Origin: Haloferula helveola
Lineage (GTDB): Bacteria > Verrucomicrobiota > Verrucomicrobiia > Verrucomicrobiales > Akkermansiaceae
DNA length: 64,000 bases
Assembly: GCF_037076345.1 (NCBI RefSeq)
Contig: NZ_AP024702.1
Coordinates: forward strand, 806,001 to 870,000
Reading direction: 5' to 3'
In this document: positions 50,778-52,292 of the stretch, one piece after another
Layout: each line of letters begins with the position of its first letter
How positions within the stretch are numbered: the first letter of the stretch is position 1
Translations under genes and position numbers: made by a program
Notes under the pieces: generated by a model
The model's database searches: none
Seen by the model: the letters and a program-made list of their open reading frames with translations, nothing else
What the model was told of the DNA's origin: nothing

Positions 50778-50806
50778 AGGTTAGCAACCTAGACCGATCG
50801 GTCAAT
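50778..50806 (-). promoter_or_regulatory. TetR autoregulatory operator and promoter
   Basis: GACCGATCGGTC at 50792-50803 is a perfect 12-bp palindrome, overlapping a -35-like TTGACC (50800-50805 on the minus strand) with TAACCT (50778-50783) 16 bp downstream. Flanking bases extend the match to the SDR operator. The arrangement implies negative autoregulation. Confidence 0.75.
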
Positions 50807-50906: not shown

Positions 50907-51176
50907 ATGGCTTCGATCAGCATGTCGCCGCACCTCCAGACCCATGTGGGCATCACGCCGGGCGAAGTCCGAGGAGACACGGTTCGCGAGGCTCTGGAAT
51001 CGCTTTTCACCGAACACCCGAGGCTCCGCAGCTACCTGCTGGATGATCGCGGTGCCGTGCGGAAGCATGTCGCCGTATTCGTCAATGGCGAGTCGGTGAA
51101 GGACCGCGCGACCCTTTCGGATCCGCTGCCGCCCGACGGCGAGATCTTCCTCATGCAGGCATTGTCGGGCGGCTGA
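50907..51176 (+). CDS. MoaD/ThiS-like ubiquitin-fold sulfur-carrier protein
   Basis: An 89-aa beta-grasp protein ending in Gly-Gly (residues 88-89), as in MoaD, ThiS and related carriers whose C-terminus is adenylated and thiocarboxylated. Family-like blocks are TVREALESLFTEHPRLRSYL (about 25-44), HVAVFVNGESVKD (about 54-66) and PDGEIFLMQALSGG. No MoeB/ThiF, MoaE or ThiG gene is nearby. It is followed after only 12 bp by a BNR-repeat protein gene, an association seen in many bacteria but without an assigned function. An ATG at 50922 is an alternative start. Confidence 0.85.
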   Translation: MASISMSPHLQTHVGITPGEVRGDTVREALESLFTEHPRLRSYLLDDRGAVRKHVAVFVNGESVKDRATLSDPLPPDGEIFLMQALSGG

Positions 51177-51188
51177 ACCCCACTCACC

Positions 51189-52292
51189 ATGAGCGACCGC
51201 ATCGACATCGGCACCCGCAAGGGCCTTTTCTCCTACGAACGCCGTAGCTCGGGATGGGAGCCCGTCGGTGCGTCCTTCCTCGGCATCCAGGTCCCGATGC
51301 TCTTCCACCACCAAGGTGTGATCCTTGCCTCGGTCGAGCACGGGCACTTCGGAACCAAGTTTCACCGCTCCGCCGACGGCGGCTCATCGTGGGAAGAACT
51401 CGACGCTCCGGCTTACCCGGAGAAACCCGACGACGTTCCCGACATTCTCGATCCTTGGCGCAACACCCCGGTCCCGTGGTCGCTGGAGAAAGTCTGGTGC
51501 CTCGAGTCGGCAGGCAGGACCGGTGAGCTTTGGTGCGGCACCCTGCCGGGAGGCCTTTTCAGATCCTCCGACCAGGGCGAAAGCTGGAGCCTGGTCCGCA
51601 GCCTGTGGGATCGACCCGAACGCGCGAAATGGGCGGGCGGGGGCTACGACTGGCCGGGCATCCACTCGATCTGCGTCCACCCCGACGACCCGATGAAAGT
51701 CGCTGTCGCGATCTCGTGCGGGGGCGTCTGGCGCACGGAAGACGGTGGCGAGTCGTGGGCCCAGGGAGCCCACGGCATGCGCTTTGATTTCGTCCCCGAA
51801 GACCAGGGCGGTGCGGACCCCGAAGCCCAGGACCCGCATCGGATGGTGCAGTGTCCCTCGGCTCCCGACCGGCTCTGGGTCCAGCACCACTGTGGCATCT
51901 ACCGCTCCGACGACGGAGCCCGCTCGTGGCACGAAATCCGGGACGTGAAGCCGTCCGGCTTCGGCTTCGCGGTGGCGGTCCATCCGGAGGCCCCGGACAC
52001 CGCTTGGTTCGTGCCCGCCAAGAAGGACGAATTCCGGCACCCGGTTGACGCCCGCTTCGTCGTCACGCGCACCCGGGACGGTGGCCGCACCTTCGAAACG
52101 CTTGAACGGGGGCTTCCGGAGACGCCCGCCTACGACATCGTCTTCCGTCATGCACTGGACGTCGACCGTACAGGACACCGGCTCGCCATGGGGTCGACCA
52201 CCGGCTCGCTTTGGGTATCGGAGGATCAGGGAGATTCCTGGCAGCATCTCAGCGCCCATCTCCCGCCAATCTACTGCGTGAGATTTGCCTGA
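51189..52292 (+). CDS. BNR/VPS10-type beta-propeller protein paired with MoaD-like gene
   Basis: A 367-aa cytoplasmic protein (no signal peptide) built from BNR/Asp-box repeats. Copies of the S-x-D-x-G-x-[ST]-W pattern are at about residues 62-69 (SADGGSSWEE), 121-129 (SSDQGESWS), 185-193 (TEDGGESWA), 236-243 (SDDGARSWH), 288-296 (TRDGGRTFE) and 347-355 (SEDQGDSWQ). Two conserved Cys/His clusters (HHCGIYRS and ICVHPDDP) could bind metal. Annotation pipelines often call such proteins exo-alpha-sialidase or glycosyl hydrolase, but the sialidase Arg triad and Asp are not evident. Adjacent to, and probably co-transcribed with, the MoaD-like gene. Confidence 0.8.
   Translation: MSDRIDIGTRKGLFSYERRSSGWEPVGASFLGIQVPMLFHHQGVILASVEHGHFGTKFHRSADGGSSWEELDAPAYPEKPDDVPDILDPWRNTPVPWSLEKVWCLESAGRTGELWCGTLPGGLFRSSDQGESWSLVRSLWDRPERAKWAGGGYDWPGIHSICVHPDDPMKVAVAISCGGVWRTEDGGESWAQGAHGMRFDFVPEDQGGADPEAQDPHRMVQCPSAPDRLWVQHHCGIYRSDDGARSWHEIRDVKPSGFGFAVAVHPEAPDTAWFVPAKKDEFRHPVDARFVVTRTRDGGRTFETLERGLPETPAYDIVFRHALDVDRTGHRLAMGSTTGSLWVSEDQGDSWQHLSAHLPPIYCVRFA

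Follow-up and report, generated by a model that had tools for sequence, protein, structure and literature searches.

Carriers of the ubiquitin-like (Ubl) kind act with dedicated partners, and each of the carrier-partner pairs ThiS-ThiG, MoaD-MoaE and CysO-CysM belongs to its own pathway. Among the closest described systems, CysO-CysM-Mec of Mycobacterium and the related actinobacterial pairs place a CysO-like Ubl gene, whose product ends in Gly-Gly (GG), next to the gene for its partner enzyme, with charging by an E1-rhodanese. ThiS-ThiG and MoaD-MoaE likewise join a carrier to a dedicated partner, and natural fusions of both are described in excerpts of the survey of ThiS/MoaD neighbourhoods by Iyer et al. 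2006 (PMC1779556), where trimming of fused forms by a JAB enzyme is also suggested. The Mycobacterium E1-rhodanese MoeZR sulfurates MoaD1, MoaD2 and CysO, as stated in passages of PMC3227635.

The locus described here lies in a window of 64,000 nucleotides from Haloferula helveola (contig NZ_AP024702.1), which means the whole stretch of DNA that was analysed. As the original prediction had it, two genes of the same strand lie 12 bp apart:

50907..51176, + strand: Ubl gene, 89 aa, ThiS/MoaD-like (CysO/SAMP1-like), product ending in QALSGG (ORF list, Pfam, NCBIfam)
51168..51173, + strand: codons of the terminal Gly88-Gly89, invariant in an alignment of 80 Ubls
51177..51188, + strand: spacer of 12 bases from the Ubl gene to the propeller gene (ORF positions)
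51189..52292, + strand: propeller gene, 367 aa, Asp-box beta-propeller of the 3b7f family (ORF, phmmer, structural alignment)

The partner at this locus is thus a propeller, whereas that of CysO is a PLP enzyme, and here no JAMM gene adjoins the pair and none is found in the window's genome. Compared with ThiS-ThiG and MoaD-MoaE the partner has another fold, and the genome holds separate MoaD, MoaE, ThiS and ThiG loci. The haloarchaeal SAMP1 profile (NF041918) is the best curated NCBIfam match of the Ubl, although at 50 bits it stays below the cut-off of 60, and we know of no case in which SAMP1 is paired with a propeller. The pair is flanked in the window by a TetR-like gene on the opposite strand and a convergent cytochrome-c-like ORF, both named by eye. 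Between the TetR-like gene and the Ubl gene, a perfect palindrome, GACCGATCGGTC, occurs at window 50792-50803 as a single copy in the window and is a possible repressor site.

The Ubl-propeller pair is real and widespread in bacteria, and we found no earlier description of it in the literature searched, where the term ThiS is in part read as 'this' and a slash spelling may escape. Word searches of the text of Iyer et al. 2006 met no mention of propeller, sialidase, BNR, glycosyl hydrolase, WD40 or neuraminidase, and a word search in PMC2948915, on archaeal Ubls, was empty. A beta-propeller domain is named in the legend, as excerpted, of a figure of beta-grasp architectures in PMC1949818, and this figure may possibly hold an earlier drawing of a beta-grasp/propeller fusion.

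Co-occurrence of the two genes

Searched with the window propeller, the genome collection gave 91 relatives, of which the best 80 were used. A Ubl is found by phmmer beside 79 of these 80, the exception (L080) beginning at a contig end, and the hosts include, by record title, Verrucomicrobiota, Planctomycetota, Pseudomonadota, Gemmatimonadota, myxobacteria, Marinimicrobia, one cyanobacterium, one actinobacterium and a Saprospiraceae MAG. In 78 of the 79 the gap between the end of the Ubl and the propeller match is at most 186 bases, and in 22 it is at most 3, distances that are taken to match starts, some of which are not true start codons; at L016 the Ubl lies 1518 bases upstream of the match. 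Among 349 Pseudomonadota genomes the propeller profile matches 25 (1e-30) and the Ubl profile 11 (1e-12), and all 11 of the latter fall within the 25, each Ubl adjoining a propeller (hypergeometric probability 2e-14, kinship ignored). Furthermore, Ubl distances follow propeller distances over the 80 pairs (r 0.83, with none of 1000 permutations as high). Presence of the Ubl at 79 of 80 relatives, together with the 11 of 11 within 25 of 349, rules out chance neighbours, so that the genes co-occur across phyla above chance, as had been predicted, and are not random neighbours in the related genomes of the window's subfamily. This co-occurrence, the existence of two gene orders and the natural fusions support the Ubl and propeller being a functional two-part unit. 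The top covarying pair of positions between the two proteins was rejected as a contact, since it separates the subfamilies and is therefore read as kinship.

Propeller matches occur in 8 of 194 Verrucomicrobiota genomes (1e-10), namely the window's own, three distant ones (L086-L088) and four weak ones (L089-L092), and no Ubl was found at the four weak matches. No match is present in the one same-genus and 17 same-family genomes listed; this patchy distribution would fit either acquisition by transfer or repeated loss. Phages gave no match, and archaeal plasmids gave just weak partial ones among the matches listed. The pair also occurs in a plasmid record of Pseudomonas aeruginosa (L099:4711-6107), where it is annotated as MoaD/ThiS family protein and exo-alpha-sialidase.

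Clustering of the neighbours at 80 loci and in 40 actinobacterial regions gave no third conserved gene, and a larger operon was accordingly rejected; the gene calling behind this clustering was crude and missed even members of the pair, the propeller being called in 55 of the 80 loci. Neither a conserved sulfur-metabolism gene nor a recurring E2-like gene stands beside the pair in these same two sets, and the commonest family besides the pair is an ABC-type ATPase (9 of 40 actinobacterial regions). When the window's neighbours (TetR, SDR, sugar-isomerase-like, cytochrome-c-like and the large downstream proteins) were sought at the relatives, SDR alone matched, in 5 loci at 25-36% identity, as expected of so common a family. 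The window's neighbour genes are without conservation at the relatives' loci.

Gene order, fusions and solo propellers

The order of the two genes is not fixed. All nine of the close Pseudomonadota propellers (>520 bits) have the Ubl upstream, while the 16 distant ones (217-276 bits) have it downstream in 8 and lack it within ~1.5 kb on each side in 8, giving a Ubl beside the propeller at 17 of 25. The three distant Verrucomicrobiota loci L086-L088 also run propeller then Ubl, with an ATGA stop-start overlap at L088, whose Ubl is unrecognised by Pfam and connected to the family only through its GG end and through iterated profiles. Within Actinomycetota the propeller profile matches 69 of 246 sampled genomes (70 matches); the conserved partner of this Ubl is a propeller, recorded as a sialidase. 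Of the 66 matches examined there, the Ubl is upstream in 17, downstream in 29, fused in 9 and absent in 11, which places it beside or fused to the propeller at 55 of 66; for the 11 solo propellers the flank checked was ~6 kb per side at L183, L184, L186, L215 and L216 and ~1.5 kb at the rest.

The nine fusions are single ORFs with the Ubl at the N-terminus of the propeller, and GG is kept inside all nine, with a linker of 5-25 residues after it. Six of them were compared with Pfam, and ThiS matched in all six, above its cut-off in five and below it, at 18.1 bits, in L187. With GG lying inside them, these fusions prompt the question whether bacteria process ubiquitin-like precursors. On a FastTree tree of 125 propellers, in which subfamily 1 was thinned to every third row, the arrangements require at least 10 changes, with 5 for the solo state and 4 for fusion; branches with good support make 5 and 3 of these necessary. 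The Ubl-propeller link persists in most clades of this tree and has outlived several rearrangements.

The solo propellers carry the same invariant residues as the paired ones. The 11 actinobacterial genomes with a solo propeller each have at least 2 Ubl-profile matches elsewhere, and the loci that were read adjoin CysM-like or threonine-synthase-like enzymes (by eye). A Ubl search of the 8 proteobacterial solo genomes gave nothing at E 0.01 in six, one match at 7e-7 and one at 0.005. Genomes with a solo propeller and no Ubl, taken with the unchanged invariant residues, show that the propeller can act without the Ubl and argue against the Ubl being strictly needed.

The Ubl and its Gly-Gly end

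The MoaD/ThiS-type identity proposed for the 89-aa protein is borne out by Pfam ThiS, which it matches at 29.8 bits (8.9e-7) against a cut-off of 22.5, and its nearest solved relatives are 1v8c (MoaD-related), SAMP1 and 4n6e (ThiS/MoaD family). It is not MoaD or ThiS proper: the genome has a separate MoaD beside MoaE and a separate ThiS, both far away. In the window's subfamily the GG end is invariant in 80 aligned Ubls, and the exact L[ST]GG end is found in the window Ubl and in 77 of 79 relatives, L044 and L051 carrying residues beyond GG. A variable tail, which would have told against the original prediction, is therefore not what is seen in this subfamily.

The wider family is less uniform. 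Among 65 Ubls tabled, which include L124, L150 and L217 as second copies of loci counted elsewhere, 50 stop exactly at GG and 13 carry at least one residue beyond it, in one of these a third G, while the L204 Ubl is truncated by a contig end. Residues beyond GG also occur in actinobacterial CysO-like genes (L229, L234, L235). One Nonomuraea Ubl beside a propeller (L103:6081-6395) ends in PALA and a stop without Gly-Gly, which is either a real loss or a sequence error.

The propeller

By phmmer the window propeller has a sole PDB match up to E 0.1, 3b7f (Ralstonia eutropha reut_b4987; 5e-48, residues 21-366), and structural alignment to it gives Z 47.6 and rmsd 2.2 over 349 residues. The two belong to the same family, and at 34% identity 3b7f represents a more distant subfamily. 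Alignment with a designed protein of seven blades gives Z 26.7, and 3b7f itself has seven blades according to the part of PMC2716378 that tables it, so that the six blades originally proposed are probably wrong. The structure of 3b7f was released in 2007 and its function was still tabled as not known in that 2009 paper; the pairing with a Ubl offers a cheap and direct test. The strict Asp-box pattern matches five times (residues 61, 126, 183, 295 and 344), and a sixth, degenerate box is seen by eye near 240-247, against an earlier count of about six boxes.

Conservation reaches at least 96% in each group of an alignment with 155 paired and 23 solo rows at seven residues, K11, W148, H159, H217, Q232, H234 and R320, and H53, K57, R145, D215, H233, D280, R283 and H321 are additionally invariant in the window's subfamily. 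From this pattern of sequence conservation we predict a binding or active site. Fold-near Asp-box propellers with bound peptides in their PDB titles (YCF48 with a D1 peptide, sortilin with neurotensin, and DAIP with a C-terminal thermolysin fragment) offer a lead for tail binding, although identity is 10-16% among the rows listed; to our knowledge none of them has a Ubl partner.

Public records name the propeller exo-alpha-sialidase or sialidase family protein. Sialidases of family GH33 have three conserved Arg and a catalytic Tyr with a Glu. They also have Asp-boxes, of which the window propeller shows five strict ones, but such boxes are common to many non-sialidases. The Arg triad was said to be missing, and this is right for the family as a whole, where R320 is the only Arg in columns conserved at 90% or more, but not for the window's own subfamily, in which R145, R283 and R320 are all invariant. 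There is no Tyr among the invariant or near-invariant columns of the 80 rows of the window's subfamily, and hence the sialidase label, which had been suspected to be wrong, is not supported.

Structure models of the fused forms

AlphaFold was run on two read-through fusions, one of the window pair with a short linker (69 rows, 31 of them fused) and one of L061 with a long linker (31 rows). The window fusion gave pLDDT 93.5 and pTM 0.78 with residues 88-94 disordered, and the L061 fusion pTM 0.83 with residues 87-119 disordered. By arithmetic 0.83 is above the value for the propeller alone and 0.78 hardly above it, so that the L061 model is only suggestive of an association between Ubl and propeller. 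The GG tail, whose entry into the propeller channel had been proposed as a check, has no ordered position in either.

Charging and trimming machinery

Genome-wide matches to ThiF, MoaE and ThiG all lie outside the window, in agreement with the earlier statement that its 64 kb hold no E1-like, MoaE or ThiG gene. The window's genome has two ThiF-family genes, one joining ThiF to a rhodanese (L083) and one (L084) that we take for TcdA-like. This E1-rhodanese and the genome's MoaD and ThiS are all far from the pair: ThiS is encoded at 4.11 Mb and ThiG at 4.50 Mb, while the window spans 0.81-0.87 Mb, and the MoaD/MoaE, ThiS and ThiG loci are separate and outside the window, which confirms that the pair stands apart from the molybdopterin and thiamine loci. 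In this genome MoaD forms the C-terminal part of a fusion with a MobA-like protein (L001:1498-2322, - strand), which ends in PPVAGG, with MoaE adjoining.

An E1 elsewhere in the genome had been proposed as a check, and besides L083 a ThiF match of at least 237 bits occurs in all 20 other pair genomes tested (14 and 6); this co-occurrence nevertheless carries little weight, as 12 of 14 controls match as well. At 1e-3, Prok-JAB, the JAMM family, matches all 9 genomes with fusions, 11 of the 14 other genomes with the pair and 8 of 14 controls, with no match at this threshold in the window's genome, G194, G197 or G207. This distribution suggests, weakly given the rate in the controls, that a JAMM enzyme may be dispensable where GG is free and at hand where GG is internal.

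A model for the Ubl and its propeller partner

We propose a model in which the Ubl serves as a CysO/SAMP1-type carrier charged in trans, within a two-component module, and the propeller is its dedicated partner; we hold this tentatively, at a little under an even chance of being right. A housekeeping E1, here the MoeB-type E1 with a rhodanese that is encoded far away, would adenylate the GG end of the Ubl and charge it, a thiocarboxylate being the likeliest form. The propeller would bind the charged Ubl, and K11, W148, H159, H217, Q232, H234 and R320 would form the putative site at which the charged tail meets the substrate, a role parallel to that of CysM for CysO and of ThiG for ThiS. For Ubls that are fused or carry residues beyond GG, prior cleavage by a protease would be needed to expose GG, and all nine fusion genomes have a JAMM-family gene. 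Sulfur transfer is likely to be the chemistry of the pair.

This model is favoured by the presence of the Ubl at 79 of 80 relatives and of the propeller in 11 of 11 Ubl genomes, by a link that persists in most clades across at least 10 changes of arrangement and by the correlated distances (r 0.83), and furthermore by a GG that is invariant in 80 Ubls and in 9 of 9 fusions, by the likeness of the Ubl to ThiS, MoaD and SAMP1 and by the E1-rhodanese in the genome. Related actinobacterial Ubls that adjoin enzymes of the PLP type (by eye CysM-like and threonine-synthase-like), the MoeZR precedent in the cited passages of PMC3227635, the ThiS-ThiG and MoaD-MoaE fusions in those of PMC1779556 and the presence of Prok-JAB in all nine fusion genomes point the same way. 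Against it stand the propellers that occur alone, with no Ubl close by at 8 of the 25 matches in Pseudomonadota and 11 of the 66 in Actinomycetota, and the lack of a conserved sulfur-metabolism gene beside the pair; the internal GG of the fusions is not chargeable unless cut, JAMM occurs in 8 of the 14 control genomes and the window's genome lacks it, and E1 is near universal. The Nonomuraea Ubl without GG and the disordered tail in both models argue against a strict carrier role. The original view of the propeller as the partner in a sulfur-transfer or tagging pathway is therefore upheld in part, by the functional unit, the conserved GG and the E1 elsewhere, and weakened by the disordered tail and the solo propellers. 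It is possible, if on balance doubtful, that the pair represents a new and widespread Ubl-dependent bacterial pathway, in which a propeller with an invariant His/Lys/Arg/Trp site would take sulfur from, or otherwise handle, the charged GG end, and in which some actinobacteria would make the Ubl as a precursor fusion that is cut after GG.

Several of the same observations would suit a structural or regulatory Ubl, that is a non-covalent subunit or specificity factor whose GG tail packs on the propeller and is never charged. Natural fusions with an internal GG, solo propellers and a Ubl without GG all sit easily with such a role, as does the pTM of the long-linker model, but no part of the Ubl is more constant than GG, which every fusion keeps, and a packed tail is not what either model predicts; we consider this role rather unlikely. 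Protein tagging, with the Ubl conjugated to proteins in the manner of SAMP and the propeller acting as an E3-like target selector or as the target, is less probable again. Propellers often bind proteins, the genome has an E1 and SAMP1 is the best, if sub-threshold, NCBIfam profile of the Ubl; the window's genome, however, has no JAMM-type deconjugase, no E2-like gene recurs beside the pair, and the invariant His/Lys/Arg/Trp set would seem to resemble a catalytic or ligand site more than a protein-binding surface.

The invariant residues and the peptides bound by YCF48, sortilin and DAIP might be read as signs of a hydrolase that acts on the Ubl end, which it would trim, discharge or deconjugate. 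Function is not shown by fold similarity, however, no hydrolase signature was recognised in the propeller and solo propellers occur without the substrate, and we regard this as a distinctly improbable account. What the public records imply, an ordinary sialidase or glycosyl hydrolase beside an unrelated MoaD-like gene, draws on those names and on the GH74 enzymes among the structural relatives of the window propeller. It conflicts with pairing counts that exclude a chance neighbour, with R320 as the sole family-wide Arg, with the lack of a near-invariant Tyr in the window's subfamily and with the window propeller itself, on which no signal peptide is apparent by eye, and it is the least credible of these readings, with very little chance of being correct.

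Two further arrangements were met in the genomes examined. At the actinobacterial loci L219, L220, L226, L227 and L229 a second CysO-like Ubl directly follows a threonine-synthase-like gene (by eye). The solo propeller of Rhodobacter sp. CZR27 (L101:2406-5933) adjoins the ergothioneine genes egtB and egtD on the opposite strand, a single case and a possible link to sulfur.
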